Shown here in pieces: positions 24,510-61,159 of a DNA stretch of 64,000 nt (the stretch's first letter is position 1; the number at the start of each line of letters is the position of its first letter). The stretch covers positions 2,852,001-2,916,000 of the forward strand of contig NZ_AZUP01000001.1 in assembly GCF_000527135.1 (NCBI RefSeq), in the 5' to 3' direction. Source of the stretch: Methyloversatilis discipulorum. GTDB taxonomy: Bacteria; Pseudomonadota; Gammaproteobacteria; Burkholderiales; Rhodocyclaceae. Position numbers and translations under genes: made by a program. Under the pieces are notes generated by a model that worked only from the letters and a program-made list of their open reading frames with translations, did not search any database and was not told the DNA's origin.

Positions 24510-24838
24510 CGGTCAGTAAGGCGAATGCGTGCTACGGCCACGAAGTGGGCGGAGGGGGCCCTGCTTAATACGGACACTACGCTAAGACGGCCGGGCCATC
24601 ATGAACAGGGCGAACCGAACGCATTTGCGATTCATCGAGGGTGCAGGCGCTCACCGGCCTGACGCGATTTACGGCCGTCGCGGTCGGAACTTTGTCAGCG
24701 ACTGTGTCCACCGCCCCTCGCCAAGGCGAGGGCAAGTCGGTCTGGCGGACACAGTCGGCGCACGGCGTCGCCGATGGCGCGCCACACGCGTGCGCTACCA
24801 TCCGGGCGACGGGTCTTCAGAACGGAGTCTGGATACGA
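24510..24838. other. Intergenic region between divergent kinase and GGDEF genes
   Basis: About 330 bases separating two divergent signalling genes. I see no RNA gene, repeat or strong sigma-70 promoter. The plus-strand GGDEF reading frame stays open back to 24641, so a longer start would take up part of this region. Promoters for both genes should lie here. Confidence 0.4.
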
Positions 24839-26770
24839 ATGAGTGGCAGCCAAGAGGGCCTCTCGGGAGGGCGGTGGATCCTGCTCGCGCTGCTCGCTGT
24901 CTGCGTGCTCGACATCCGGCTTTTCATGTTCGTCGATGCGGCACGCACGGAAACGCTGGAGCGCGCGCTCGATACGCTGCACGTGAGCGCCGAAGTGGTC
25001 GCGCGGCGCATGGATCAGCACCTGGCCACCTACGACCGGCTTCTGTCCGGCATTGCCGAGGGTGTCCGGCTTCACGGCGGCATGTCGACCGCCCCCGATC
25101 TTGCCCTGCACCGGCTTCTGGTCAGGCGACACGCCCTCAATCCGGAGTTGCGGTCGCTGTTCCTGGTGCGGCACGACGGCACCGTGGCAGCAATGTCGCT
25201 CAGCTTTCCGGCACCGCAACTCGATGTATCGGCGCGGGACTACTTTCAGGCGCAATCGGGATCGGGCGCCGACGAGCACCGCCTTTTCGTTGGGCCGGCC
25301 ATCATCAGCAAGCTGACCGGCAGGCACATCTTTCCGCTCAGCCGGCGGGTCGAGAACGATGGCAACCGCTTTCTCGGCGTAGCGGCCGCTGCCGTCGATC
25401 CGGAACTGCTGACGACCTTGTTGATCGAGCAGGGACTGCCGGCCGGCTACACGCTGTCGGTCTTCCTGCGCGATGGGCATCGACTTGCCTGCCTGCCTCG
25501 CCGCGCCGACTGCGTCGAGAGCACAGCCGCCGACACGCCCTTGTTCCGCACGCTTCTGCCCGCAGCCGCCGACGGTCTGTTCGCGCGCCAGCGCCTGCTC
25601 GACGAGCCCGCCGGTCCGGCTGCCTACGCCACCTCCAATGCCTATGGAATCATCGTCGCCGCGACCGCGGATGAGCGCGTGCTGCTGCAGTCGTGGCGGC
25701 GCAATCTGGGCAGTTACGTCACGCTGGCGGCAGCGAGCAACCTCGCGTTCGCGGGGCTGGCCTGGTTCGCCTTCCGTCAGTTCCGGCGCCGCCGACTGGC
25801 GCTGCAGCAACTGGCCGATGCAAACCAGGAACTGGAGAACCGCGTCGCCCGCCGCACGGATCAGCTGCGACGCAGCGAAGATCGCGCTCGGACCTTCATG
25901 AACACGGCACGTGATGCCGTCGTCGTGATCGACAGCAACAGCTGCATCGTCGAGTTCAATCGCGCGGCCGAAGCCTTGTTCGGCTATCGCGCAGAGGAGG
26001 TCGCGGGGCGTCGTCTCGACATGCTGATGCCGCCCGCCCAGGCGCCGGCGCACCGCCAGCATGTGCAGGCGGCGAATGCATCGGTCGACGCGCGCGCGAT
26101 GAACCGGGGGCGCGAGGTGACGGGCCGTCACAAGGACGGCCACGAATTCCCGATCGACGTTACCGTCGGCAGCGCAGGCGAAGGTCCGCAGAGCGTCCAC
26201 GTCGGCATCATTCGCGATATCAGCGAACGCAAGGTCATGGAGCGCGAACTGCAGCGACAGGCGTCGACCGACGGTCTGACCGGCGTGCTCAATCGCCGCG
26301 CCTTCACCGCAGAAAGCGAGCGGCTGATATCGGTCGCGTTGCGCCACGGGCGGCCGCTGAGCCTGATGGTGATCGACGCCGACCACTTCAAGAAGGTGAA
26401 CGACGTGTTCGGCCACCCGACCGGCGACGCCGTGCTGAAGGCGCTCGCGCTCACGCTCGCACAGGCGCTGCGCACCAGCGACGTGCTCGGCCGTCTCGGC
26501 GGCGAGGAGTTCGGCATCGTGCTGCCGGAAACCGATGCCACCGGCGCGCACGAGGTCGGCGAGCGACTGCTGCAGGCGGTACGCGAGCGCCGGATCGAAC
26601 ACGACGGCCATACGCTGAACATCACCGTGAGCATCGGTGCGACCGTGCTCGGTGCCGGCGACGACAGTTTCGAATCGGCCTTCCTGCGTGCCGACCGGGC
26701 ACTTTACGAGGCGAAGCACGGAGGACGGGATCGCGCCGTGCTGAAGCTTGGCGGCCAGCCGACCGGCTAA
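24839..26770 (+). CDS. Membrane diguanylate cyclase: Cache sensor, PAS, GGDEF
   Basis: A 643-residue protein. The first membrane helix is about residues 12-31 (WILLALLAVCVLDIRLFMFV). A periplasmic Cache-type sensor follows (about 35-280, with LDVSARDYFQAQ and GRHIFPLSRRV), then a second helix near 290-308 (LAAASNLAFAGLAWFAFRQF). A cytosolic PAS domain (about 355-470; FMNTARDAVVVIDSNSCIVE) precedes a GGDEF domain with the active motif GGEEF in GRLGGEEFGIV. RTSD lies five residues before it and fits the RxxD inhibitory site, so product inhibition is expected. It should make c-di-GMP in response to a small extracellular ligand. The ATG at 24839 (MSGSQEG) was chosen because the frame upstream has no coding character. 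Converges with the GGDEF-EAL gene, 58 bases between stops. Confidence 0.92.
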   Translation: MSGSQEGLSGGRWILLALLAVCVLDIRLFMFVDAARTETLERALDTLHVSAEVVARRMDQHLATYDRLLSGIAEGVRLHGGMSTAPDLALHRLLVRRHALNPELRSLFLVRHDGTVAAMSLSFPAPQLDVSARDYFQAQSGSGADEHRLFVGPAIISKLTGRHIFPLSRRVENDGNRFLGVAAAAVDPELLTTLLIEQGLPAGYTLSVFLRDGHRLACLPRRADCVESTAADTPLFRTLLPAAADGLFARQRLLDEPAGPAAYATSNAYGIIVAATADERVLLQSWRRNLGSYVTLAAASNLAFAGLAWFAFRQFRRRRLALQQLADANQELENRVARRTDQLRRSEDRARTFMNTARDAVVVIDSNSCIVEFNRAAEALFGYRAEEVAGRRLDMLMPPAQAPAHRQHVQAANASVDARAMNRGREVTGRHKDGHEFPIDVTVGSAGEGPQSVHVGIIRDISERKVMERELQRQASTDGLTGVLNRRAFTAESERLISVALRHGRPLSLMVIDADHFKKVNDVFGHPTGDAVLKALALTLAQALRTSDVLGRLGGEEFGIVLPETDATGAHEVGERLLQAVRERRIEHDGHTLNITVSIGATVLGAGDDSFESAFLRADRALYEAKHGGRDRAVLKLGGQPTG

Positions 26771-26828: not shown

Positions 26829-28646
26829 TCAGCCCGGGAAGCCGGCGGCGGCGCGCAAGGGCGCGGCGGAAGGATGGGGTTGGTCCGACAGCAGGTCGGT
26901 CGCCCCGATGCGTTCCGCGAGCCATTGCGTGGCGTCGTTCGCGGCCAGCGGGCGCGACCACAGATAGCCCTGACCCTTGTTGCAGTCCAGCGTCGCCAGC
27001 AGCGCCGCCTGGCCTTCGGTTTCGATGCCTTCGGCGGTCGTGCTCATGCCGAGGCTGCGGGCAACGCGCACGGTGGCTTCTATCAGTACCCGCTTGTGCA
27101 GATTGCTCTCCGCGTCGGCGACAAAGGAGCGATCGATCTTGACCGTGTCGATCGGCAGCTGGCCGAGACAGGCCAGCGAGGAATAACCGGTGCCGAAATC
27201 GTCCAGCGCGAGCGCGAGGCCGAGCGCCTTCAGTTCGAGCAGGCGGGCGCGGATGTCGTCGCCCTGGGCCGCCATGCTCTCCGTCACCTCCAGCTGCAGT
27301 GCCTGCGCCGGCAGACGGCTCGATTCGAGCACGCGCGCGACCTGGGCGGCGATCGCGGCGTCCTGCAACTGTGCGCGCGACAGATTGACCGAAATCATTC
27401 CGGGCGCCTGTGCGCCGAAACAGCGCTGCCAGGCAGCCAGCTGCCGGCAGGCCGAATCGAGCACGAACTCGCCGACGGCGCCGATGAGGCCGCACTCCTC
27501 AGCAATTTCGATGAATTCGACCGGAGATACCAGACCGCGCTGCGGATGCTGCCAGCGGACCAGCGCCTCGAAGCCGGCGACGCGACCGTCGGCCAGCTCG
27601 ACGATGGGCTGGTAGACGACGAACAGTTCGCCCTGTTCGAGCGCCCGCCGCAGTTCCAGTTCGAGTGCGCCGCGACGGGTCGCGATGTCCTTGATCGACG
27701 GCGTGAACAGCACGTGGCGCCCGCCGCCGGCACGCTTCGCCTCCTGCATGGCGAGGCTCGCGTCCTGCAGCACGGCGTTCGCCTCGGCGGCGGCATGAAC
27801 ACCGGCGACGACGCCGATGCTGGCGGAAATGTGCACCTCGACGTCATCGATCAGATAGGGGCGGGACAGCGTGTCGATCAGCCGCTGCGCGATGCTGTGC
27901 ACGTCCTCGCTCCCACGCAGGCCGTCGAGCAGCACGACGAATTCGTCACCGCCGAGGCGGGCCGTCGTGTGCAGCGGCTCCTGCGCAGGGCCGACGGCAT
28001 CGCGCTGACGCACGGTGCCATTCAGCCGCTCGGCCACCATGCGCAGCAGCCGGTCGCCACCTGCCTGCCCGAGCGTCAGATTGACGCGATTGAAGCGGTC
28101 GCAGTTGATGAACAGCACGGCAAAGGTGGGCGCTCCGCCGGCATCGGGGCGCGCCAGCGCCTGCTGTATCCGCTCCAGCACGGCGGAGCGGTTGGGCATC
28201 AGCGTCAGGCTGTCGGTGCGCGAGGCGTCGCGCATACGCGACGCCAGGCGCTGCTGTTCCAGCTCGACCTCGTGCGTCACATCGTTGACGCAGCCCATGA
28301 TGGTGTTGGGGTCGAGCCGGAGAAGACTGATGCCGAGCACGCGCCTGCCGCCGGCGGTCGAGCGCACCGGCATGCGCAGCCCCTCGCACACCAGCGCACC
28401 CGGCTCGACCGCAGCGTCAGCCATGGCGCGCAGATCCGGCGCCACCTCGGCCAGCACCTCGAACAGATTGTCCAGATTGCCCTGCCGCGCCAGCGGCATC
28501 AGCAACTGCGCCGAACGTGGATTCAGCATGGTCACCGTGCCGTCGGGCCGCACCTGCAGCAGGCCGATCGGCGCCTGATAGAGGAACTGGATCAGCGCCT
28601 CGTAGGCGGGCGGCTGCAGAACCTCTGGGTCGCTGTCCGGCTTCAT
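26829..28646 (-). CDS. PAS-GGDEF-EAL protein at the end of the PYP operon
   Basis: A 605-residue cytosolic protein. An N-terminal PAS-like module (about 10-135; YEALIQFLYQAPIGLLQV) is strikingly similar to that of the upstream cyclase. The GGDEF domain (about 150-320) has an intact RLGGDEF motif but no RxxD site at the usual spacing. The EAL domain (about 335-585) has the full set: FEALVRW, ISVNLSRAQL, LEVTES, LDDFGTGYSSL, VKIDRSFV, AEGIET and QGYLWSRP. Both activities look possible; in such hybrids one often dominates. The ATG overlaps the preceding stop as ATGA, so it is translationally coupled to the cyclase. As last gene of tal-pcl-pyp-cyclase it is a candidate output of PYP light sensing. 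Confidence 0.93.
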   Translation of the reverse strand: MKPDSDPEVLQPPAYEALIQFLYQAPIGLLQVRPDGTVTMLNPRSAQLLMPLARQGNLDNLFEVLAEVAPDLRAMADAAVEPGALVCEGLRMPVRSTAGGRRVLGISLLRLDPNTIMGCVNDVTHEVELEQQRLASRMRDASRTDSLTLMPNRSAVLERIQQALARPDAGGAPTFAVLFINCDRFNRVNLTLGQAGGDRLLRMVAERLNGTVRQRDAVGPAQEPLHTTARLGGDEFVVLLDGLRGSEDVHSIAQRLIDTLSRPYLIDDVEVHISASIGVVAGVHAAAEANAVLQDASLAMQEAKRAGGGRHVLFTPSIKDIATRRGALELELRRALEQGELFVVYQPIVELADGRVAGFEALVRWQHPQRGLVSPVEFIEIAEECGLIGAVGEFVLDSACRQLAAWQRCFGAQAPGMISVNLSRAQLQDAAIAAQVARVLESSRLPAQALQLEVTESMAAQGDDIRARLLELKALGLALALDDFGTGYSSLACLGQLPIDTVKIDRSFVADAESNLHKRVLIEATVRVARSLGMSTTAEGIETEGQAALLATLDCNKGQGYLWSRPLAANDATQWLAERIGATDLLSDQPHPSAAPLRAAAGFPG

Positions 28647-29953
28647 CGGGCGGCCACCGACTGCGGCGCGGGCTGCCAGCGCTCGACCCGATTGCGTCCT
28701 GCCGCCTTGGCCGCATACAGCGCCTCGTCGGCACGCTGCATCAGCGCGTCGAAATCGCTCACGTCGGCGTCCATCGCCGCGACGCCGGCGCTGACGGTGT
28801 AGCGCACGGCCTGGCCGCCGACCTCCACCGCCTGCGTCGCAAGCAGCTGGCACAGGCGCTGGGCAACGACCGCAGCACCCTCCAGCGTGGTGTCCGGCAA
28901 CAGCACGACGAATTCCTCGCCACCGAAGCGCGCCAGCACGTCCATCGCACGGAAGGTCGCGGTCATGCCGGCGGCGAGATGACGCAGCACGGCGTCGCCG
29001 GCGGCGTGACCGTACTGGTCGTTGATCCGCTTGAAGTGGTCGGCATCGATCATCACCAGCGACAGCGGCCGCGGAAAGCGCGCCCAGCGCTGCATCTCCA
29101 GCTCGACCGCCTCGACGAAGGCGCGGCGGTTCAGCAGGCCGGTCAGGTGATCGCAGGACACCGCCTTCAGCAGCGCTTCCGCCGCCTCGCGCCGGTCGGA
29201 CACGTCGCGGATGATGAGGCTGTAGGCACGTTCGTCGGACAGCTCGCCATCGCGGTCATGCAGTGGCGCGATCAGGCAGCTGCCCCAATAGCGACCGGCG
29301 TCGGCGCGCACGCACCATCCTTCGTCCAGGCTCCAGCCGGTGCGGTCGGCCTCGTGCAGCCGGTCGAGCACGCGCTGTTCGGAAATCGCGTCTTCAGGGT
29401 AGAACATCGACAGGCTGCGGCCGCTCACCTGCTCCTCGGTGAAGCCGGTGATGCGGGCGATGCTCGGGTTCCAGTCCTGCACGCAGCCGCGGTGGTCGAG
29501 CGACACCAGGGCGTAGTCGGTCAGGCCGATCGCCAGCGTGTTGATCCAGGCCTGGCTCTGGCGCAGTTCGCGGTCCCGGCGGACCGACTGCGTGACATCG
29601 GAAATGACGGCCATCAGCCGCTCGGCGTCGAGCTTCAGCAGCGTCAGCGCCAGCACCTGGCTCTGCCGACGACCGGGCTGACCGGTCGCGATCGGCACCT
29701 GCAGCGCGTCGCACACCGTACCGTGCGCGTCCGGGAAATCCTGCACCCGCTGTCGCAGGTCAGGCACCACGGCTTCCAGCGCGGTGAACAGATTGGCCAG
29801 CTGGCCGTCCGGGGAGAGCGGCATCAGCAGCTGCGCGCACAGCGGATTGATCATCGTGATCTCGCCGTCCGCCAGCGTCTGTACAAGGCCTATCGGCGCC
29901 ATGTACATGAACTGCAACAGCGCTTCGTATTCCTCTTCGACCGGTGCGCTCAT
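28643..29953 (-). CDS. PAS-PAS-GGDEF diguanylate cyclase directly after pyp
   Basis: A 436-residue cytosolic protein. The N-terminal PAS-like module (about 5-125; YEALLQFMYMAPIGLVQT, NPLCAQLLMPL) is shared with the downstream GGDEF-EAL protein. A second conventional PAS/PAC (about 130-255; GLTDYALVSLDHRGCVQDW, ITGFTEEQVSGRS) precedes the GGDEF domain (about 265-425). That has FGGEEFVVLLP and the RxxD inhibitory site (RAMD, five residues earlier), so it is probably an active, feedback-inhibited cyclase. The gene begins 12 bases after the pyp stop and overlaps the next gene by 4 bases. With no membrane segment of its own, it could take its signal from the soluble PYP (inference). Confidence 0.93.
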   Translation of the reverse strand: MSAPVEEEYEALLQFMYMAPIGLVQTLADGEITMINPLCAQLLMPLSPDGQLANLFTALEAVVPDLRQRVQDFPDAHGTVCDALQVPIATGQPGRRQSQVLALTLLKLDAERLMAVISDVTQSVRRDRELRQSQAWINTLAIGLTDYALVSLDHRGCVQDWNPSIARITGFTEEQVSGRSLSMFYPEDAISEQRVLDRLHEADRTGWSLDEGWCVRADAGRYWGSCLIAPLHDRDGELSDERAYSLIIRDVSDRREAAEALLKAVSCDHLTGLLNRRAFVEAVELEMQRWARFPRPLSLVMIDADHFKRINDQYGHAAGDAVLRHLAAGMTATFRAMDVLARFGGEEFVVLLPDTTLEGAAVVAQRLCQLLATQAVEVGGQAVRYTVSAGVAAMDADVSDFDALMQRADEALYAAKAAGRNRVERWQPAPQSVAAR

Positions 29954-29965
29954 GCCTGCTCCGGC

Positions 29966-30358
29966 TCAGGTCTGACGGTGGACCAGCACATAGCGCAAGC
30001 TGCTGCCGGGTCGGGCGAGCAATCTGAGCTTCACCTTGACCGGGCGCATGCGCAGCGTAAGCACGTAGTCGATGGTGTCGTCGAGCACGCTGCCGTCCTG
30101 CTGCGCGTCCTCGAAGCGCTGGGCAACCATGAAGTTGTTCATGCACGGCGCCACCACGGTGAACAGCGCGTGCCCGATCACCCGATCGGGCGACAGGCCG
30201 GCGGCGGCCGATTCGAAGCGGTTGTAACGCCGGACCTGGGTCGCGTCGTCCATGGCGATGACGCCGAAGTCGAGGCTGTCGAGTTCGGCGTCGCTGGCGC
30301 GGTCGAGATAGTCAAACAGTGCGGCGTCGGAATAAGCGATGGTCTGTTCCGTGTTCAT
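29966..30358 (-). CDS. pyp: Photoactive yellow protein (PYP)
   Basis: A 130-residue single PAS-fold protein, the size of classical PYP (125 residues). Aligning by eye with Halorhodospira PYP gives an offset of +3 and conserves the chromophore pocket. Cys72 in VVAPC matches the p-coumarate-bearing Cys69, Tyr45 (RRYN) matches Tyr42, and Glu49 matches Glu46. LDFGVIAMD, VIGHALF and the C-terminal MRPVKVKLRL match FGAIQLD, VIGKNFF and MTPTKVKVHM. Differences are Ala53 and Leu55 at the Thr50 and Arg52 positions, and Leu at Tyr98. These may shift colour or photocycle speed. It should absorb blue light and signal by conformational change. Start ATG: MNTEQTI. It lies 123 bases after pcl and 12 bases before a cyclase gene. 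Confidence 0.93.
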   Translation of the reverse strand: MNTEQTIAYSDAALFDYLDRASDAELDSLDFGVIAMDDATQVRRYNRFESAAAGLSPDRVIGHALFTVVAPCMNNFMVAQRFEDAQQDGSVLDDTIDYVLTLRMRPVKVKLRLLARPGSSLRYVLVHRQT

Positions 30359-30481
30359 GGGGCTCCCTGGGTCGGTATCAACGGACACCCTGAGGTGCGC
30401 CGGATGGCAAGGCGGAGGCAGTGGACACTCCGGATGACGAAGCAGTTATCGGGACATGCGCCCGCGAACTTGAGAAGGCGC

Positions 30482-31696
30482 TCAGGGCGAGATCGGCCAG
30501 TCGGCGGACTTGCCGCGGGCGTCTAGCGGCAACCGGTCGCCGAACGACCAGGCGCGTGGACATTCGGGCGCCGACAGACGTTCCCTTACCCACGCTTCGA
30601 GCTGCGGCAACAGTGCTGACGCGGGGATGCCGGCGCTCGGCACGACGAAGGCCTTCAGCCGCTCGCCTTCGGCCGGCGACATCAGGCGCACCGCGCACGC
30701 CTCGACCTGCGGGTGCTCGAGAAGCACGTCGCGCACCCGCGCCGGAAACACGTTCACGCCAGCCACCTGCACCGCTTCGTCGCGCCGTCCGGCCAGCCGG
30801 AACCGCCCGTCGGGCAACCACTCGATCACGTCCTGCAATGCAGCTCGACACTCGCCACCGTCCGCCGTCGGGCGCACCAGTGCCGCGTCGTCGGCCACCG
30901 CGCGGCGCCAGTGCGGCATCAGCGTGTAGGGCGCGCCGGCGGTGTCGCGCCAGCCGATGCCGGCCGTCTCCGAACTGCCGTAGATCTGCAGCAATCGCGC
31001 CAACCCCTGCGCAACCAGCGCGTCGGCCAGCGCATCCGGGCAGGGCGCGGTGGAGCTGGTACCGATGATGTCGGCCGGCAGCTGTGGACCGAAGCGGGCG
31101 AGCAGCGACCAGTGCGCCGGGTGACTCACCAGCAGGTCGCCCGGCTGCAGCCGGGCGGCCAGCGCCTGCGGCGGCAGCGGCCGCACATCGACGACATCGC
31201 ATGTACCCAGACGGGGCGGCAGCAGGACGCCGAAGATGAAGCCATAGATGTGATGGACCGGCACCGCGACCAGCACCCGCCGGCGCGGCCCGATGCGGGC
31301 GGCCAGCGCATCGGCCTCCTCTTCCAGCATGGCCAGCGCGTGTGTGCAGGCCTTCGGCGTGCCGGTGCTGCCTGACGTGCGGAAGGTCAGGCGGCGGCCG
31401 TCCTGCGCCAGCCCTTCGCGGGCCAGCGCGCAGTACTCGCCGAAAGTACTTGCCGCCGGCAGCGCGTCGATCACCGTGCTGTCGTGCAGCTGCAGCAGTT
31501 CGGCGATGGCGGCGGCCAGCGTGTAGCGCTCCAGTGAATCCAGTCCGAAACCGCTGTCGTCGAACGCCATCGAAGCCGGCCACGGCGGCGGCGGCAAGGG
31601 CGAGCCACCGGGCCGCAGCCGTCGCACCTCGTCGGCGATCAGGTCGGCCAGCACGCGTTCCAGCGCCGGACCGTCGGCGTGCCAAGGGGCGCTCAT
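30482..31696 (-). CDS. pcl: 4-coumarate:CoA ligase, PYP-activation type
   Basis: A 404-residue adenylate-forming enzyme, shorter than plant 4CL and typical of the PYP-activation family. It has the P-loop-like RTSGSTGTPKACTH (about residues 107-120), VPVHHIYGFIFG, IYGSSETAGIGWRD (adenylation core), and DGRFRLAGRRDEAVQVAGVNVFP (hinge and C-terminal lid). The terminal catalytic lysine region reads LDARGKSADW. It should activate p-coumarate to the CoA thioester that is attached to PYP Cys72. The first 80 residues contain FGLDSLERYTLAAAIAELL, resembling the phosphopantetheine-site helix of acyl carrier proteins. The ATG overlaps the tal stop as ATGA. Confidence 0.92.
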   Translation of the reverse strand: MSAPWHADGPALERVLADLIADEVRRLRPGGSPLPPPPWPASMAFDDSGFGLDSLERYTLAAAIAELLQLHDSTVIDALPAASTFGEYCALAREGLAQDGRRLTFRTSGSTGTPKACTHALAMLEEEADALAARIGPRRRVLVAVPVHHIYGFIFGVLLPPRLGTCDVVDVRPLPPQALAARLQPGDLLVSHPAHWSLLARFGPQLPADIIGTSSTAPCPDALADALVAQGLARLLQIYGSSETAGIGWRDTAGAPYTLMPHWRRAVADDAALVRPTADGGECRAALQDVIEWLPDGRFRLAGRRDEAVQVAGVNVFPARVRDVLLEHPQVEACAVRLMSPAEGERLKAFVVPSAGIPASALLPQLEAWVRERLSAPECPRAWSFGDRLPLDARGKSADWPISP

Positions 31697-33264
31697 CCGT
31701 CCGACTCCAGCACGTCGCCTGCGCTGCCTGCGCGCAGCACGCCCACCAGCCGGGTCAGTTCATGGTCCAGCGCGCGGTCCTCGACCACCAGCGGAATGCG
31801 GGACTCGAGCCACGACTGGGTGTGCGCCAGCACCGGCGGCAGCGCACCAGCGTCGATGCGGCCGCGCAACGCGACCGCCTGCCGCGCCGACACCAGCATC
31901 GCCGCCAGCACCTGTTCGCCCAGTTCGAGCACGCGCAGGCAGTCGCGCGCGGCGATCGTGCCCATGCTCACCTTGTCCTGGTTGTGGCATTCGGTCGAGC
32001 GCGAGAACACCGACGCCGGCAGGGTGGTCTTCAGCGCCTCGGCGGTCCACGCCGACACGGCGATCTGCAGCGCTTTCAGGCCGTGGTTCAGTGCGCCGCG
32101 TTCGCCGGTTGCGGCGCTCAGGTTGTCCGGCAGGCCTTGGCTGAAACGGCTGTCCACCAGCAGCGCGAGCTGGCGGTCCAGCAGGTCGAGCACATTGGCG
32201 ACCGCGGTCTTCAGGCTGTCCATCGCGAACGCGACGTGACCGCCGTAGAAATGTCCACCATGCAGCACGCGCCCGCTGTCCGGGTCGATCAGCGGATTGT
32301 CGTTGGCGCTGTTCAGTTCGTTCTCGATCAGCGTCCGCGTGAAGGGCAGCGCGTCTTCGAGCACGCCGATCACGTGCGGCGCGCAGCGCAGGGAATAGCG
32401 GTCCTGCAGCCGTGCCGGATTGCGTGCCGCGCCAGCGTCGCAGGCGAGGTCGCGACGCAGCCGGCGGGCCACTGCCTGCGGTCCGGGGTGAGGCTTGGCG
32501 GCGAACAGCAGCGCGTCGAAGTGATGCGGATTGCCGGCGGTCGCGAACACGTTCAGCGCGGTCAGGCGGGTGGCGACCCGGCTGCAGCGCTGCGCCCGCT
32601 GCCAGGCGAGACAGGCCAGCGCGGTCATGACGGCGGTGCCGTTCATGATGGCCAGCCCCTCCTTCGGTTGCAGCGACAGGGGCTGGATGCCGGCTGCGGC
32701 CAGCGCCTCGCGCGCCGGCATGCGCCGCCCGCGCCACCGCACGTCGCGCTCGCCGCACAGCGCGGCGGCGACGTAGGACAGCGGCGTCAGGTCGCCGCTG
32801 GCGCCGACCGAGCCTTCGGCCGGAATGCAGGGCAGGATGTCGTGCTCCAGCAGCGCCGCCAGATGCTGCAGCAGTTCGTAGCGCACACCGGACATGCCCT
32901 GGCACAGCGAGGCCAGCCGCGCGGCCAGCACCGCGCGTGTCTCGTCGGCCTCCAGCAGGCGCCCCATGCCGACGCCGTGATAGGTGTAGAGGTGCTGAGG
33001 CAGCTCCGCCACCTGCGCGGCGGGCACCGCCACCGTGCACGACTCGCCGTAGCCGGTGGTGACGCCGTAGATCACGCCGTCGTCGGCGAGCAGCTGCAGC
33101 ACGACGCGGGCGCCGGCGTCGATGCGGGCGCGGAAGGCTGTCTCGGTCGACAGCACGGCGCGTCGCCCGCCCTCGGCGATCGCGGCGATCGCCTCGATGT
33201 CGAGCGGGCGACCGTCGAAAACGACGTCATCGTGTTCCGGGGCGGCGGCGGTCATGAAATCCAT
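31693..33264 (-). CDS. tal: Tyrosine ammonia-lyase-like enzyme (MIO family)
   Basis: A 523-residue member of the histidine/phenylalanine/tyrosine ammonia-lyase family. The triad Ala155-Ser156-Gly157 (GSVGASGDLTPLSY) forms the MIO cofactor. The catalytic Tyr66 is in IYGVTTGYGES, with further family motifs NELNSANDNPL and FSRSTECHNQDKVSMG. Context (4-base overlap with pcl, then pyp) argues for deamination of tyrosine to p-coumarate. The substrate-selecting pair reads Tyr95-His96 in an ungapped comparison rather than the His-Leu of the Rhodobacter tyrosine enzyme, so histidine activity is not excluded on sequence alone. No hut genes are nearby. The start is uncertain among three ATGs (33291, 33264, 33255), none with a good ribosome-binding site. 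Confidence 0.87.
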   Translation of the reverse strand: MDFMTAAAPEHDDVVFDGRPLDIEAIAAIAEGGRRAVLSTETAFRARIDAGARVVLQLLADDGVIYGVTTGYGESCTVAVPAAQVAELPQHLYTYHGVGMGRLLEADETRAVLAARLASLCQGMSGVRYELLQHLAALLEHDILPCIPAEGSVGASGDLTPLSYVAAALCGERDVRWRGRRMPAREALAAAGIQPLSLQPKEGLAIMNGTAVMTALACLAWQRAQRCSRVATRLTALNVFATAGNPHHFDALLFAAKPHPGPQAVARRLRRDLACDAGAARNPARLQDRYSLRCAPHVIGVLEDALPFTRTLIENELNSANDNPLIDPDSGRVLHGGHFYGGHVAFAMDSLKTAVANVLDLLDRQLALLVDSRFSQGLPDNLSAATGERGALNHGLKALQIAVSAWTAEALKTTLPASVFSRSTECHNQDKVSMGTIAARDCLRVLELGEQVLAAMLVSARQAVALRGRIDAGALPPVLAHTQSWLESRIPLVVEDRALDHELTRLVGVLRAGSAGDVLESDG

Positions 33265-33367: not shown

Positions 33368-34444
33368 TCATCCGGCGCAGCGCTGTTCGACCTGGCGATG
33401 GAACAGCGCACCGGCCGCCACGCTGGCCGCCCACGCGAAGGCAAGCGCCGCTGGCGCGGTGTCCGGCGTAGCGCCCCACAGACGGGTGACGACGGCGTTC
33501 ACCAGCATGGCCACCGGGTAGTGGATCAGGAAAACTGAAAACGAAATCCGGCCGAGGAAGGCGAGCGCCGGAATGTCCGGCCAGCGCGCCAGGAGCCCGC
33601 TGCGCAGCCCGCCCCACAACAGCAGCGCCACGCAGCCGGCGAAGGCGACGCGTTCGCGGTGTTCGAGTGTCAGCGCCAGCAGCACGGCGGCGGCAACCGC
33701 CACGCCCCACAGCAGCGAGCGGCCTGGTCTGGACAGCCAGCAGACGGCAGCCCCCAGAGCATAGACACCGAAATAGTAAGGACCGGCGACGTCCCAACCG
33801 GTGTCGCGATTGATCACGAACAGCGACGCGGCCGCGACACCGGCGGTGATCGCGGCGAGCACCGCGGTAGCCCTTAGCGGGCCGGTGCGCGAGGCCAGCC
33901 AGACCAGCAGCGCCGCCATCGCGTACAGCTGGAAGTCGATCGCCACGTACCAGACACCGGCCGACAGCGCCTCGACGCCGACGATGTCCTGCAGCAGCAG
34001 TGCGTGCGCGAGCAGCTGACCGACCGAGGGCTCGGCGGGGAGGCTGGGATCGTCGATCAGCGCGCGCGCGATCGCCGCGCAGGCGACGCTGATCAGCACG
34101 GCTGCCATGCAGGGCAGCGCCAGCCGGCGATAGCGCTTCCACAGCACCGCCGGCAGCGACAGCGGTCGCGGCTGCAGCGCCGGCGCCAGCGCGCGGGCGG
34201 CGAGGAAGCCGCCGATGACGAAGAACACCTGCACCGCCAGCCGCCCGTCGTAGTAGAGCCAGTCGGCCAGCTTGGGGAAGCGGCTGCGGAAGGCATCGGC
34301 CAGCGGACCGTAGGCGACCAGGTGATGCAGCACGATAAGCTGCGACGCGACCGCCTTCAGCGTGTCGAACGCCGCGAGGCGCGACGTGTCGTCGCGTCGG
34401 TCGGCGCGTAAGCGGGCATCGGTGCCGGCCGTCGGGGCGTACAT
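33368..34444 (-). CDS. Acyltransferase 3 family membrane protein (OafA-like)
   Basis: A 358-residue protein with about ten hydrophobic segments, typical of acyltransferase family 3. Near the N-terminus are LAAFDTLKAVASQLIVLHHL, with the family histidine, and the RLAVQVFFVIGGFLAAR motif. Then come the arginine-rich loop WKRYRRLALP and helices such as LVWLASRTGPLRATAVLAAI. The last part is ISFSVFLIHYPVAMLVN. Such enzymes O-acylate surface sugars or lipids. The start ATG is MYAPTAGT; another ATG lies 30 bases upstream. It is 103 bases upstream of tal on the same strand, so it could belong to the PYP transcription unit, but no role in PYP is known. Confidence 0.85.
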   Translation of the reverse strand: MYAPTAGTDARLRADRRDDTSRLAAFDTLKAVASQLIVLHHLVAYGPLADAFRSRFPKLADWLYYDGRLAVQVFFVIGGFLAARALAPALQPRPLSLPAVLWKRYRRLALPCMAAVLISVACAAIARALIDDPSLPAEPSVGQLLAHALLLQDIVGVEALSAGVWYVAIDFQLYAMAALLVWLASRTGPLRATAVLAAITAGVAAASLFVINRDTGWDVAGPYYFGVYALGAAVCWLSRPGRSLLWGVAVAAAVLLALTLEHRERVAFAGCVALLLWGGLRSGLLARWPDIPALAFLGRISFSVFLIHYPVAMLVNAVVTRLWGATPDTAPAALAFAWAASVAAGALFHRQVEQRCAG

Positions 34445-34511
34445 TGCGGGGGATTCCAGGGCGAAGCCCGGCATTGTGCACGCCGCTGCCCCGAATTCAA
34501 GACCGGCAGCG

Positions 34512-35165
34512 TCAGCCGTCGCCGCGCGCCACCTTCGCCTCGTAGGTGGCAAGATCCATCAGACCTTCCTGCATCGCCTGCCGGCGTTCGTGTTCCGGCA
34601 GCACGTCCTGCACCATGTCCAGCCGTTTCCACGACGCGAGCGGCGTCACGCACTCCGCCTTCGGCACGTATTTCGACTGTTCGAGCTTGCGGTACCGGTG
34701 CACGTAGCGCGGACAATTCACCCAGATCTTGCTGACCGTCACGCGCACCAGGTACTTGGCTTCGTCATAGTCGGCCAGCAGCGGGTGCTCGGCCAGGAAT
34801 TCGGCGACGCCCTGCACGCGCACGCGGTGCGGGTTCTCGAAATCGATGAACAGCAGGCCGACACGCGACTGGCCGACGATATTGCCCAGCGAGTAGAACA
34901 TGCCGTTCCCGTCGTAGCCCGGAAACACCAGCGTCTGCGCGTCGAGCACCTTGACGAAACCGGTCGGGCCGCCCTTGTAGGACACCGTGGGGTTGCCGTC
35001 GGGATCGACCGTCGACAGGAAGAACATGTCGCGCGACGCGATGAAGTCCCGCTCGGCATCCGAGATCTGCTCATGCACCCAGCCGGTGTCGAGCATCTCC
35101 GCCAGACCGGTGGTGCCGTAGGCCTGTTGCAGTGCGCGATGATGGTCCGAATACAGGGAAGTCAT
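34512..35165 (-). CDS. Pyridoxamine 5'-phosphate oxidase-fold protein
   Basis: A 217-residue protein of the FMN-binding split-barrel family (PNPOx-like). Recognisable parts are FIASRDMFFLSTVDPDGNPTV, SYKGGPTGFVKVLD, and GNGMFYSLGNIVGQSRVGLL, the usual strand pattern that cradles FMN in this group, then HRVRVQGVAEFL. It is longer than general-stress PNPOx proteins at the C-terminus. The reaction is unknown; it is not PdxH, whose active-site pattern differs. The ATG is preceded by GAGGAG. It ends 67 bases before the acyltransferase start, so the two may be co-transcribed. Confidence 0.88.
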   Translation of the reverse strand: MTSLYSDHHRALQQAYGTTGLAEMLDTGWVHEQISDAERDFIASRDMFFLSTVDPDGNPTVSYKGGPTGFVKVLDAQTLVFPGYDGNGMFYSLGNIVGQSRVGLLFIDFENPHRVRVQGVAEFLAEHPLLADYDEAKYLVRVTVSKIWVNCPRYVHRYRKLEQSKYVPKAECVTPLASWKRLDMVQDVLPEHERRQAMQEGLMDLATYEAKVARGDG

Positions 35166-44747: not shown

Positions 44748-45956
44748 CTAATAAAGATGCTGCTCATGCGCCGTTCTCAGTGGGGCCAAATCCGTCTTGC
44801 CGGCTGGTTGCACTTGGTTCGAGAGCGGAAAAACACATTTTTTCAAAAAGATCTCGACCTGTTCCCAACTCGCCCTCTCTGATCGCAGGTTAATAAGTTT
44901 TTGAGTGGCCATATGGATCTTTTCCAGCGATGTTCTCGCTTGTTCGCGTTGGTCATACAGCGAATGGGTATGTGATTTTTGACCTGCATACGTCTGGAAT
45001 TCCCTGATTGGATTGGTTCGACAATTCATATCGGAGTCGTCAGTTGATTCTCCCTCTCGAATCGCATGAGACCCAGAAAAGCTATCCTGAACCATGTGAA
45101 GAAGACTGCCAAATGCCATGTCTTCGATATCCATATTATTCCTAAACCAAGGACGCCCCAATGCAAATAATTCTTCTATGGTGCGCGATTCCCCCAGCCG
45201 AAAGTGATCGTTGATTCCGACGATTTTTACCGCGGACAACCTATCTGCTCGGCTTACTTTCCAGTCATCGGGAGATCTTCCGTCAATTCTCCACATAAGC
45301 TCTGCCCACATTAATATTTTTCCACGTGTTTCCTCCGCCGCCTCGTCCTTTCTCGTGGCCATTGAGTGTAAAAATTGAAGATCGCCAAAATGACTTCTTG
45401 CTAGCAATGACCCCTTGCCACCGGAGTATGCAAGAGGGGACTTTTTGGCGACTTTTTGAACGTGTTTAAAGTGGGCAATCCAGCAGTCAGGCGCCAACGA
45501 GAAGCTGATTGTCCCAACAGGAACAAAGTTGCCCTCTCTATCTTTTTTTCTTCTGCATGCCTTGTGATCGTTTCGATAAATGTAGCTATTCTTTGACTCG
45601 TCGAAAGAGAACGGTGGATCGTCATTCCAAACTACGCCGGCCAAAATCGCCGCGGACACGTCGCTTCTTGAGCAAAGATTGAAATCGCACCCATGTGCGT
45701 GAGCGCTTAATTGCTCATGCACAGGACTTGAATAAAGGTGAACCCCGAGATCGAACACAGGAAAGTGCGACCTAAAGGATATATCGTAGCTTTTTGCTCG
45801 CCGCACTTCCGTATCAGATGGCTTTGGGTGCAATTCGTATGAATTCGCAGGGCTGAAAGTCACAAACATCAAAAGCACTACCGCATGCTTAAGAATGCGC
45901 TTTCGAAATCGTTCTCTCCGTCCCGGCACGCCAGGAATCGCATTTAGCGCCCTCAT
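44748..45956 (-). CDS. Exported protein, possibly Zn-phospholipase C/P1 nuclease-like
   Basis: A 402-residue protein with an N-terminal signal (KHAVVLLMFVTFSPANSYEL). I do not recognise a close family. Conserved-looking histidine motifs are VHEQLSAHAHG, a central LQFLHSMATRKDE, and FGSLLHMVQDSFSGSHAIR. Helical His-rich motifs of this last type (LLHxxQDxxxxxHA) occur in the zinc-dependent phospholipase C/P1 nuclease superfamily, so a metal-dependent phosphoesterase is a fair guess. Several cysteines (CDFNLCSRS, ACRRKK, PDCW) suggest disulfides. The ATG overlaps the stop of the preceding island gene by 4 bases. Base use is low-GC, unlike its surroundings. Confidence 0.75.
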   Translation of the reverse strand: MRALNAIPGVPGRRERFRKRILKHAVVLLMFVTFSPANSYELHPKPSDTEVRRAKSYDISFRSHFPVFDLGVHLYSSPVHEQLSAHAHGCDFNLCSRSDVSAAILAGVVWNDDPPFSFDESKNSYIYRNDHKACRRKKDREGNFVPVGTISFSLAPDCWIAHFKHVQKVAKKSPLAYSGGKGSLLARSHFGDLQFLHSMATRKDEAAEETRGKILMWAELMWRIDGRSPDDWKVSRADRLSAVKIVGINDHFRLGESRTIEELFALGRPWFRNNMDIEDMAFGSLLHMVQDSFSGSHAIREGESTDDSDMNCRTNPIREFQTYAGQKSHTHSLYDQREQARTSLEKIHMATQKLINLRSERASWEQVEIFLKKCVFPLSNQVQPAGKTDLAPLRTAHEQHLY

Positions 45957-46507
45957 TCCTGACCTCCTTGTCCCGTTGTACCTTTGTCATCGGATTTGTA
46001 TAGCTCGCAAGAGAATATTATTCGCGTTATCGCCGCATCTCTTTTGGCCTGATCGCCTCCTGCAGCAATGTAATCGTTCAGATATTTTGACGTATTGTCG
46101 ATTATTTCATTGCGCGTTCTTTGTTGCCCCGCATAATCGTACCCAACGCCCACAAGTTGTTGTTGGGCGGTATTCATAACACCTGCGGTGCCGCTGAGCA
46201 GAGCAGTCGTAACGGCAGACGTATGCCCCGACAGCGCAGACCCAAGCAGTCCCGCAATTGCTCCTGTAGTTGCTGTCCAGAAAGAGAACTGTACCGCTGC
46301 GCTTGCTCGCTTTTCATATCGATTGACAACCGTCTTGCAGTTTTCGATTGCTGCTCGTAGCGCTTCGTCAGTAGCCAATGCCGATGTTGTCCTGTTGGCA
46401 ATATTTGACGCTGCTGAGGTATCGTCGGACTCAGCTCCATATACGAAACTCTTGTTGATTACCGTCAGTGCCACCATGAGAACCGATGCGTAGATTTTCC
46501 GTTTCAT
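45953..46507 (-). CDS. Exported hypothetical protein with hydrophobic Gly/Ala-rich region
   Basis: A 184-residue protein of unknown function. The ATG (MKRKIYASVL) has GAGAGGAG upstream. A signal peptide covers about residues 1-25 (YASVLMVALTVINKSFVYGA). A hydrophobic, Gly/Ala-rich stretch near 85-125 (ATTGAIAGLLGSALSGHTSA, TALLSGTAGVM) could insert in a membrane or form a helical hairpin. Two cysteines (ENCKTVV, FSCELYK) may pair. It is first of the two-gene operon in the low-GC island and overlaps the next gene by 4 bases, so the two products probably act together, for instance as an effector and its partner (inference only). Confidence 0.72.
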   Translation of the reverse strand: MKRKIYASVLMVALTVINKSFVYGAESDDTSAASNIANRTTSALATDEALRAAIENCKTVVNRYEKRASAAVQFSFWTATTGAIAGLLGSALSGHTSAVTTALLSGTAGVMNTAQQQLVGVGYDYAGQQRTRNEIIDNTSKYLNDYIAAGGDQAKRDAAITRIIFSCELYKSDDKGTTGQGGQE

Positions 46508-46767
46508 CGCGTGACTCCTCTCGAGTAGAGCTCGGTACACGGGCACCGTCAAAATGTGAGAAATTGTAAAGCCATCATGCTATATACCTAGACCACTGCT
46601 GCGAGATGTCAAGTGAGTTGCTTGGCGTAAGCAAGTGTGGCGTTCTGTGTGGCGTTCTTATTGCCGATGAGATATCTGGCCGCGGTAGGTTGTGCGTTGA
46701 ACGCAGGAGCTCATCCTTTCGCCCATGAGAGCAACCGGAGCTATCTCAGTAGCCTGCAGGGCTCGCG

Positions 46768-52399: not shown

Positions 52400-52406
52400 C
52401 CAAAGC

Positions 52407-52498
52407 TTCCGAGGAGCGCTGCAAGGTGCCGCAAGGCCCCCAGGCTCGGACCCCGCCAGACCGTCACGGTCGCGGGCACTTTTGCAACGGCGCTCACC
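52407..52498 (+). promoter_or_regulatory. SAH riboswitch
   Basis: Matches the S-adenosylhomocysteine riboswitch: CCGAGGAGCGCTGCAA at the start, CAGGCTCGGAC in the middle and GCAACGGCGCTCACC at the end. GAGCGC pairs with GCGCTC (P1) and CCGAG pairs with CTCGG (pseudoknot). It lies ahead of ahcY, whose product removes SAH; in this class ligand turns expression on. Confidence 0.95.
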
Positions 52499-52575
52499 TG
52501 AACCCGCCGCCCGGGCAGCAATCCGGCCGCGGATGGCAGGTGAGACACCGCCTGCCGCATCAAAAGGAGCCCGTA

Positions 52576-55588: not shown

Positions 55589-55709
55589 GTCCGGTCTCGT
55601 TCAGGCTCTGCCCGCATCCGGGCGATGACCGGTCTACGGCAGAGGGGCCCGTTGGCTTGAACGGCACGCCTTGCGTTGCCGTCGCGGGCGGGTTACCGTG
55701 GCGATGCAC

Positions 55710-57786
<2,077 letters not shown>

Positions 57787-58953: not shown

Positions 58954-58998
58954 TTCAAGCTCCGTCGGCGGTTTGCCGCTAACACCGGCGAAGCTGAA

Positions 58999-59079
58999 AA
59001 AAGGCAAACCCGTCCGAAAGGCGGGGACGCAAAGTCACCGGTCTAATCCGCGCACGCGGGATGACGGCGGGGCCGCCAG
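58999..59079 (+). promoter_or_regulatory. c-di-GMP-I (GEMM) riboswitch
   Basis: Matches the class I cyclic di-GMP aptamer: AAGGCAAACCCGTCCGAAAG, with its GAAA tetraloop, then GCGGGGACGCAAAGTCACCG, GTCTAAT, and GATGACGGCGGGGCCGCC with the tetraloop-receptor side. It lies 77 bases ahead of the metalloprotease start, on the same strand, so it should put that gene under c-di-GMP control. Confidence 0.93.
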
Positions 59080-59155
59080 TTCCCTCCTGTTCGATGCAGG
59101 TCCGGGGCGCGCCAGACGGTGACGACACGACAGACATCCGAGCCGGAGTTTCACG

Positions 59156-61159
59156 ATGATCGCCCTGCGCCACGCCGCATCCCCCGTCTGCACCGCACTG
59201 ATGTGCGCATTCGCGCTGTCGGCAGCCCCTGCTGCCGCTTCCCCGCGCGCGCTGCCGGCGGCCGGAACAGCGGTATCGGTGATGCAGCCGCTGCCGACGT
59301 CCGGAGCCGAGGGTGGCATGTGGCCCGTGCGGCTGGACGTGGCACGCCTGCGCTCAGCCCAGCCAGGCGAAGTGCTCCGGTTCGCGCTGCCCGACGGCAA
59401 TCATGTCGACGTCGTGTTCGATTCGACGCTGGGTGGCACCGACGGCCTGCAGTGGATCGGTCACCACACCGCCGGCAGGCAATACGCGGTGCGGCTGCGC
59501 ATCGATGGCGAACTGGCCGCAGGGGTCATCCGCACTCCAGACGGCGGTTTCGTACTGGGCCACGTGGACGGCGCTCAACTGATGGGTCCCGATCTGTCGG
59601 CGGCAGCGAATCCCGTTGCGCTGGATGGTCTGCCTTCGATGTTCCTGAGCGCCGACAGCGTGACGCCGGACGACAGCACGCAGGGCCCCGAAGCGCGCGC
59701 CGCACGTCGGCCGGCTGATGTCGCCCATCCGGTCAGCTTCAATCTGGTCGCGCTTTCAGCACTTGAGCCGGGCGAGAACGTGACGCTGTCGATCCCAGAG
59801 CACGGTGACTATCGCGTTCGCTACGACCGTACCGATGCCGGCGATGCCGACACCACGACCTGGGTCGGCCATCTGGCCGACTACGGCAGCGAATTCCGCG
59901 TCATCGTCACGTCTGGGCCGAACGGCAGTGTCGGCAACATCCTGACGCCCTCTGGCGAACTGATGCTGGTAGATAGCGGTGGCACGCAATGGCTGGTCGA
60001 CCCGGTGCGCTCCGGACTGTCGCAATTCGAATCCGAGCATGCCGACGCCGTGGGCGAGGATGTACCTGCAGCAGCCGGTGGCGTTACGGCGATGGGCGGC
60101 ACCTCGGCCGCGGCGGATGCGGGCACCACTGGCACCACGACGGCCGGCAGCGGCAGCGCGGCCAACGGCAGCGAAACGACGATCGATCTGCTGGTGCTCT
60201 ATACGCCGGGCTTCAAGAAGAAGCACGGCAGCGTATTCGGCACACGAATCGCCCAACTGGTCGCGCTGGCCAATCAAGCCTACGTCGACAGCGGTGTGCC
60301 GATGCGTCTGCGCCTCGTCGCCAGCGCGCAGGTGAATGACAGCGACACCACCAGCAATTCGACCACCCTGTCCGCATTGGCGCGCGGTACCGGCGCCTAC
60401 AGGACGGTGCCGGCACTGCGCAAGAAGTATGGCGCCGATCTGGTCGCCGTCGTGCGCCCCTTCTACATGACGGCACAGGGTGGCAGCTGCGGCGTGGGCT
60501 ACGTCGGCGGCTACAACGGCAGCAACATTGCCTACTACGGCAACTACGCATACTCCGTGGTCAGCGACGGCCGTGACATGGCCGGCAGCTATTACTACTG
60601 CACCGACTACACTTTCACCCACGAACTCGGCCACAACATGGGCCTGATGCACGATCGCGCTACGGTCGCGCGCCAGGGCGGGGGCAGCGGCAGCCACCCC
60701 TACGCCTTCGGTCACGGCCGAAGCGGAAGCTTCGGCTCCATCATGAGCTACATCTCGCCGGTGATCGGTCGCTTCTCCAACCCGGATCTGACGGACTGTG
60801 GCGGCAGCTTCGCCTGTGGCGTTCCGGTCACCGATCCGGCCAGCGCACACAACGCCCAGGCCTTGAGCAACAACCGCGCGGCGGTGTCGTCATGGCGGTC
60901 GACGACGGTGCCCACCAGCTATCAGGTATCGGGCACCATCTCGCGCGGCGGCAGGCCGCTTGCGAACGTCACGATGAGCGCAACCGATGGCGCGACCTGC
61001 ACCGCGAGCGGCCGCACGGGCGCCTACGCCTGCACCGTGCCCTGGGGCTGGAGCGGCGTCATCACGCCGCAGCCGACCGTCGGCAGTGTGCGCCCGGCGA
61101 ATCTCTTGCTGACGACAGTCAAGGCCGCGCAAAAGAAGAAGAACTTCGTCGTGCGCTGA
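59156..61159 (+). CDS. Exported metzincin metalloprotease (reprolysin-like)
   Basis: A 667-residue protein with a signal peptide (LMCAFALSAAPAAASPRA). The N-terminal 330 residues look like a propeptide with two related parts: DVVFDSTLGGTDGLQWIGHH and YRVRYDRTDAGDADTTTWVG. The catalytic domain begins near TTIDLLVLYTPGF and has the zinc site HELGHNMGLMHD (about residue 488), the HExxHxxGxxHD form of M12-type metzincins, with a Met-turn in SIMSYIS. A C-terminal domain with VSGTISRGGRPLANVTMSA resembles a carboxypeptidase-regulatory-like beta-sandwich. The ATG has GGAG upstream. Expression is expected to follow c-di-GMP through the leader riboswitch. Confidence 0.92.
   Translation: MIALRHAASPVCTALMCAFALSAAPAAASPRALPAAGTAVSVMQPLPTSGAEGGMWPVRLDVARLRSAQPGEVLRFALPDGNHVDVVFDSTLGGTDGLQWIGHHTAGRQYAVRLRIDGELAAGVIRTPDGGFVLGHVDGAQLMGPDLSAAANPVALDGLPSMFLSADSVTPDDSTQGPEARAARRPADVAHPVSFNLVALSALEPGENVTLSIPEHGDYRVRYDRTDAGDADTTTWVGHLADYGSEFRVIVTSGPNGSVGNILTPSGELMLVDSGGTQWLVDPVRSGLSQFESEHADAVGEDVPAAAGGVTAMGGTSAAADAGTTGTTTAGSGSAANGSETTIDLLVLYTPGFKKKHGSVFGTRIAQLVALANQAYVDSGVPMRLRLVASAQVNDSDTTSNSTTLSALARGTGAYRTVPALRKKYGADLVAVVRPFYMTAQGGSCGVGYVGGYNGSNIAYYGNYAYSVVSDGRDMAGSYYYCTDYTFTHELGHNMGLMHDRATVARQGGGSGSHPYAFGHGRSGSFGSIMSYISPVIGRFSNPDLTDCGGSFACGVPVTDPASAHNAQALSNNRAAVSSWRSTTVPTSYQVSGTISRGGRPLANVTMSATDGATCTASGRTGAYACTVPWGWSGVITPQPTVGSVRPANLLLTTVKAAQKKKNFVVR

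Follow-up and report, generated by a model that had tools for sequence, protein, structure and literature searches.

Two published surveys have placed photoactive yellow protein (PYP) among genes for cyclic diguanosine monophosphate (c-di-GMP) turnover. In the accessible text of Xing, Gumerov and Zhulin (2022, PMC9664959), clade-C PYPs are said to lie often beside GGDEF genes, clade C is called uncharacterised, and the downstream partner of PYP is said never to have been identified. The accessible text of Dohmen (2025, PMC12826048) lists 113 predicted pyp operons, of which 29 contain GGDEF, 22 EAL, 42 4-coumarate:CoA ligase (pCL) and 7 tyrosine ammonia-lyase (TAL), which makes a TAL gene inside a pyp operon the rarer arrangement. 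The partner of the Halorhodospira halophila PYP was still called unidentified in a 2026 abstract (PMC13250908). Here we describe a pyp operon in a 64,000-nucleotide stretch (the window) of the 4.31-Mb single-contig genome of Methyloversatilis discipulorum. Five genes, tal, pcl, pyp, a diguanylate cyclase gene and a gene for a GGDEF-EAL protein, follow one another on the minus strand from 33264 to 26829. The initial annotation of this DNA had singled out a free-standing PYP next to both a maker and a probable breaker of c-di-GMP as its standout feature; this linkage of pyp with GGDEF and EAL genes is not new, because both surveys had already published it. The new part is a PAS family shared by the two enzymes, the company it keeps and the outputs that are swapped behind it. 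No paper treating PYP together with Methyloversatilis or Massilia was found in the open-licence literature.

The cyclase and the GGDEF-EAL protein both start with one and the same domain of about 130 residues (N-domain), and the two copies are 45% identical over 121 residues. Four N-domains searched alone against Pfam up to E 10 gave chance matches only and none to a PAS family. An AlphaFold model of the cyclase N-domain, made with 74 sequences, has a PAS fold (predicted local distance difference test, pLDDT, 87.6; predicted template modelling score, pTM, 0.76), and in Foldseek and VIA comparisons it falls among PAS, LOV and PYP structures. The N-domain of the GGDEF-EAL protein is taken to have the same fold because of its identity to that of the cyclase. 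The PAS-PAS-GGDEF and PAS-GGDEF-EAL layouts proposed in the initial annotation therefore hold, with the first PAS recognised by predicted fold or by identity and not by a Pfam match. Kinship of the N-domain with PYP itself was considered and rejected, since a profile comparison gave it a probability of 0.1%, with no sequence kinship beyond the fold. A domain common to the partner enzymes of PYP was not found described in the open-licence literature searched, which leaves supplements and most older PYP papers outside. Because both enzymes begin with this domain and it accompanies this kind of PYP, the N-domain is a strong candidate for the long-sought signalling partner of free-standing PYP.

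The company of the N-domain was followed through an order-level sample, two family samples, public genomes and plasmids. In the order and family scans, scoring covered the best 10-22 first-look candidates of each genome, and a match of 100 bits or more was counted as strong in the scan of the G056 family. Rows of 23-28 bits were dropped because they reflect general PAS similarity; in the G056 family this removed eight genomes with weak rows only, together with extra rows in G838 and G918, and in the alphaproteobacterial G560 family 12 genomes with weak rows only and a single extra row in G1010. The order sample, the public loci and the G056 family overlap in species, and the association statistics ignore relatedness. 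The Methyloversatilis genome as a whole contains 46 GGDEF matches and two N-domain matches (10 of 46 first-look candidates scored), both of the latter within the PYP operon. Among the 399 genomes of the order sample, 11 carry the N-domain and 12 carry PYP, with both present in 11; by locus, 13 of 14 N-domain loci adjoin pyp. A search of 84,980 species with two peptide patterns yielded 108 relatives, and the best 80 were examined. PYP lies directly upstream on the same strand in 79 of these 80 loci, the matched stretches being 2-78 bp apart, and in the remaining locus (L030) the N-domain begins 100 bp from a contig end. Two N-domains are present in 70 of the 80.

The same pattern was seen in the families and on plasmids. 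A strong N-domain match occurs in 38 of the 195 G056-family genomes and PYP in 37, with an overlap of 37. Clade-C PYPs of this family have the N-domain next to them in 40 of 41 rows (35 by neighbourhood scan, 5 by coordinates), and the 41st lies at a contig end. In the G560 family (189 genomes), strong N-domain matches and PYP matches above 110 bits fall in the same nine genomes, and a free-standing PYP stands directly in front of the N-domain gene in all nine. Seven further genomes of this family have a PYP match and no N-domain; six of these matches lie in frames of 884-910 residues, which by length alone would be Ppr-like fusions, and the seventh, in G1102, is a fragment scoring 25 bits. 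Ten of 13 plasmid records were examined, and eight have the N-domain, each time immediately behind a clade-C-type PYP. Their hosts are Caballeronia, Indioceanicola, Sphingomonas, Rhizobium, Polymorphobacter and Methylobacterium, and Caballeronia SBC2 has a second PYP/N-domain pair. The database search for the same gene order suggested in the initial annotation thus finds the core of pyp followed by a domain-bearing enzyme in both Burkholderiales and Alphaproteobacteria.

Two natural controls bear on this company. Clade A and C labels are assigned here from score and signature residues. A clade-A PYP is present as a second PYP in 11 G056-family genomes, and pcl is next to it in all 11 and the N-domain in none. 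In five genomes of this family (G775, G811, G828, G832 and G849) a phosphodiesterase with the N-domain is encoded apart from pyp; that of G828 is on a 4.2-kb contig from which its distance to pyp is not determinable, so in at least four genomes N-domain and PYP keep company although they are not linked in one operon. Clusters with two PYPs were also seen (L025, L037, L039, L070, L077, L111, L112 and L117), in which a clade-A-like PYP with pcl, and sometimes TAL, lies within a few kb of a clade-C-like PYP that precedes a domain-bearing enzyme. A separate locus (L104, G125) has two tandem pairs of PYP-like genes, four in all, flanking a pcl-like gene, with no N-domain, and some of these genes extend in long tails past the PYP part.

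The N-domain is joined to PAS-GGDEF and to GGDEF-EAL outputs, and in two genomes (L106, L102) to a histidine kinase. The domain-GGDEF-EAL protein directly follows PYP in L138 and L152. Both N-domain copies lie in one frame with the cyclase domain missing in L081, L082 and L094, and L050 has the N-domain and a PAS without an output domain. In a tree of 116 N-domains, those of the kinases group in one clade (97/96) and those of the phosphodiesterases in another (100/99), save for one row labelled as a cyclase; this row is L026, whose phosphodiesterase frame is broken. Phosphodiesterases and kinases lack the second PAS, and the N-domain is therefore the sole part common to all partners. A natural fusion of PYP with the N-domain was not found among the open reading frames (ORFs) of the 80 public loci. 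Two rows that appeared to have an N-domain-PYP-GGDEF order are, judged by that order, weak matches of the second PAS instead.

The window PYP retains the chromophore residues Tyr42, Glu46 and Cys69 (H. halophila numbering), as the initial annotation had claimed, and all three are conserved in the 79 of 79 domain-linked PYPs of the public loci. Its match to photo_yellow (TIGR02373, NCBIfam; E 2.6e-23) falls about 60 bits under the cut-off of 143.05, a model that was probably built on clade-A members. In clade C, according to the accessible text of Xing 2022 (PMC9664959), Phe92, Phe96 and Trp119 are not conserved and Met100 is. The window PYP keeps Met100 and has Leu in place of Phe96, and by eye Ile in place of Phe92 and Tyr in place of Trp119. 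It is clade C by these residues, an assignment made apart from the published tree. In a 68%-complete genome (L102, G164), the PYP beside the domain-bearing histidine kinase keeps Cys69 and has His at position 42 and Ala at position 46.

The genes upstream of pyp would supply its chromophore. The tal product carries the Ala-Ser-Gly of the 4-methylideneimidazole-5-one (MIO) group within GSVGASGDL and matches the Pfam Lyase_aromatic family. Its closest solved relative is a tyrosine aminomutase (253 bits), and its best NCBIfam model is the BagA/FevW TAL, at 410 bits against a cut-off of 1000. The selectivity site reads Tyr-His, and the aminomutase has Ser-His there. The tal product is the probable source of p-coumarate. 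The pcl product narrowly misses the cut-off of 334.7 bits for 4_coum_CoA_lig (TIGR02372, NCBIfam), with 334.5. The five-gene, same-strand set of the initial annotation agrees with the coordinates and with the Pfam and NCBIfam matches (Table 1). Its 4-bp overlaps of tal with pcl (31693-31696) and of the cyclase gene with the EAL gene (28643-28646), and its 12-bp gap between pyp and the cyclase gene (29954-29965), are exact; the 123 bp between pcl and pyp had been passed over. A promoter scan gave 0 hits against 0.3 expected and is uninformative in such GC-rich DNA.

Table 1. Genes and domains of the pyp operon, in window coordinates
Feature	Position	Strand	Support
tal: aromatic amino acid ammonia-lyase (MIO family), 523 aa	ATG 33264 to 31693	-	Pfam Lyase_aromatic 523 bits
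pcl: PYP-type 4-coumarate:CoA ligase, 404 aa	30482..31696	-	TIGR02372 334.5 bits, 0.2 under cut-off
pyp: free-standing PYP, clade-C features, 130 aa	ATG 30358 to 29966	-	TIGR02373 82.5 bits; Tyr42, Glu46, Cys69
Diguanylate cyclase, N-domain - PAS - GGDEF, 436 aa	28643..29953	-	Pfam, GGEEF and RxxD motifs, structure model
N-domain of cyclase, PAS fold, candidate PYP receiver	29540..29953	-	no Pfam family; predicted fold
Second PAS of cyclase, residues 143-258	29180..29527	-	Pfam PAS_9 41 bits; structure model
GGDEF domain of cyclase	28688..29155	-	Pfam GGDEF 158 bits
GGDEF-EAL protein, probable c-di-GMP phosphodiesterase, 605 aa	ATG 28646 to 26829	-	Pfam and motifs
N-domain of GGDEF-EAL protein	28239..28646	-	45% identity to cyclase N-domain
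GGDEF domain of GGDEF-EAL protein (RLGGDEF)	27723..28217	-	Pfam GGDEF 107 bits
EAL domain of GGDEF-EAL protein	26949..27656	-	Pfam EAL 241 bits

Both enzymes downstream of pyp retain their signature motifs. The window cyclase has RAMD and, five residues on, GGEEF, that is, an RxxD inhibition site and a GGEEF motif. In 75 related cyclase ORFs, a set that includes the one broken phosphodiesterase frame (L026), GGEEF is kept in 72 and RxxD in 69. The model of the full cyclase runs from the N-domain through a helix, the second PAS and a second helix to the GGDEF domain (pLDDT 82, pTM 0.59). The GGDEF-EAL protein contains EALVRW, EVTES, DDFGTGYSS and KIDRSF, and the EAL motif is kept in 69 of 69 related ORFs; by these motifs it is a probable c-di-GMP phosphodiesterase.

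Taken together, we read the operon as a blue-light to c-di-GMP switch in which light-activated PYP signals through the N-domain, and give this reading a probability of roughly 0.6. The lyase and ligase would make p-coumaroyl-CoA and load PYP with its chromophore on Cys69, as their families and the published H. halophila biochemistry suggest. Light-activated PYP would then act in trans on the PAS-fold N-domains of the cyclase and of the GGDEF-EAL phosphodiesterase, and its contact with them would gate the two activities together; in relatives, a histidine kinase can carry this N-domain. As to the sign of the effect, our guess, by analogy with Idiomarina loihiensis, is that blue light lowers c-di-GMP. 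The self-contained blue-light module proposed in the initial annotation thus survives as the best reading, with a core order that recurs; its linkage was not new, and the shared first domain had been missed. We also lean, with some hesitation, towards a more general proposal, that the N-domain serves free-standing clade-C PYP as a dedicated receiver. The two would form a PAS:PAS two-protein phototransduction pair with cyclases, phosphodiesterases and histidine kinases as its outputs; the N-domain would be the first general signalling partner of free PYP.

Several observations weigh against signalling from PYP to the N-domain. A 100%-complete genome (G826) encodes an intact cyclase with the N-domain and gave no match to PYP; a plasmid (L109, CP099603.1) has a clade-C-type PYP and no N-domain on its 493-kb record, which covers the plasmid only. 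G164 contains, apart from two other pyp-N-domain loci, a lone diverged N-domain protein (G164:C41) away from pyp with a degenerate GGDEF motif; this is the genome that is 68% complete. A second locus in G848 has only a PYP remnant beside the N-domain, and in several loci the neighbouring EAL protein is without the N-domain. Divergence was also compared: partial correlations with PYP over 91 loci are 0.20 for the N-domain, 0.27 for the second PAS and 0.16 for GGDEF, and over 74 betaproteobacterial loci 0.19, 0.19 and 0.18, respectively. Because the N-domain tracks PYP no better than the second PAS does, co-divergence lends no support to a specific PYP:N-domain contact. As to the surroundings of two of these cases, the G826 cyclase (L166) adjoins an ORF read here as an oxidoreductase of the flavin adenine dinucleotide (FAD) type. 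The L109 PYP faces, in convergent orientation, a 4.1-kb gene that carries a PAS-protein annotation, and BLUF and cyclase genes adjoin it.

One alternative is that the N-domain is an independent sensor of a small molecule or cofactor, or a dimerisation cap, with PYP acting elsewhere, for example on the second PAS, and the genes standing together as parts of one response. Ligand binding and dimerisation are common in PAS folds, co-divergence with PYP is no stronger for the N-domain than for the second PAS, and the domain survives without PYP in G826. The second PAS, however, is missing from the phosphodiesterase and kinase partners, whereas the N-domain is common to the three kinds of partner found beside PYP. 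An independent sensor would also be expected in genomes that lack PYP, but strong matches occur there in only 1 of 58 domain-bearing genomes (11, 38 and 9 from the three scans, a few present in two samples). We regard this explanation as unlikely. It is more doubtful still that pyp and the domain-bearing enzymes merely spread as a transferred unit, their company reflecting shared ancestry or transfer and not contact. Patchy occurrence and plasmid copies would fit such spread, and the Fisher values for the association take no account of relatedness. Against it, five PYP genomes retain a domain-bearing phosphodiesterase that is not linked to pyp, the N-domain/PYP pair stayed together through changes of output, and the classical PYP of the same genomes, in some within 4 kb, never acquired the N-domain. 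That PYP is not a working photoreceptor here, because it has no p-coumarate or has another ligand, and that the operon senses something else, is very improbable. In its favour, the lyase has only distant kin among solved enzymes and an unsettled specificity, PYP scores below the photo_yellow cut-off and the G164 PYP is without Tyr42 and Glu46; against it, the three chromophore residues are present in every linked public PYP and in the window PYP, and a PYP-type ligase accompanies them.

The operon is flanked by an acyltransferase gene (33368-34552) on the same strand upstream of tal, and by a convergent dCache-PAS-GGDEF gene (24641-26770) downstream. Elsewhere in the window, a c-di-GMP-I riboswitch (58993-59080, plus strand, 71 bits) lies just before an ORF (59156-61159) with the zinc-protease motif HELGHNMG; the two are a possible c-di-GMP read-out about 26 kb from the PYP operon. 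A thiamine pyrophosphate (TPP) riboswitch (55705-55811, plus strand) precedes an ORF resembling ThiC (55813-57786), and an S-adenosylhomocysteine (SAH) riboswitch lies at 52405-52502 on the plus strand. Between 44500 and 46550 the G+C content drops to about 0.48, compared with 68% for the genome, over two minus-strand ORFs (44748-45956 and 45953-46552); this stretch was probably acquired.

The N-domain named here bears on how free PYP hands on its signal, as a candidate partner of about 130 residues that can be expressed alone and assayed for binding. The outputs joined to it are opposite in sign. Should it bind PYP, it would also serve as a modular adaptor that links blue light to c-di-GMP or two-component signalling.

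Among described systems, the clade-C loci of Xing 2022 are the most similar, with a free-standing clade-C PYP beside c-di-GMP genes, often pcl, and Burkholderiales prominent; in the accessible text their neighbours are named as GGDEF or EAL only, and the shared N-domain, the kinase variant and the unlinked copies are undescribed. The operons of Dohmen 2025 likewise combine pyp with GGDEF, EAL, pCL and TAL genes, but the run of all five genes in the window is fuller than the counts suggest, and the accessible text does not mention a shared domain. I. loihiensis also has a free PYP adjoining a GGDEF gene, and blue light lowers its biofilm, but its PYP belongs to clade A (as related in PMC9664959 and PMC12826048). 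The Ppr and Ppd fusions (PYP-phytochrome-kinase or -GGDEF-EAL), as described in the same two papers, tie PYP to kinase or c-di-GMP outputs as well. In those proteins PYP is fused in cis with phytochrome, whereas the window PYP stands alone and would work in trans.

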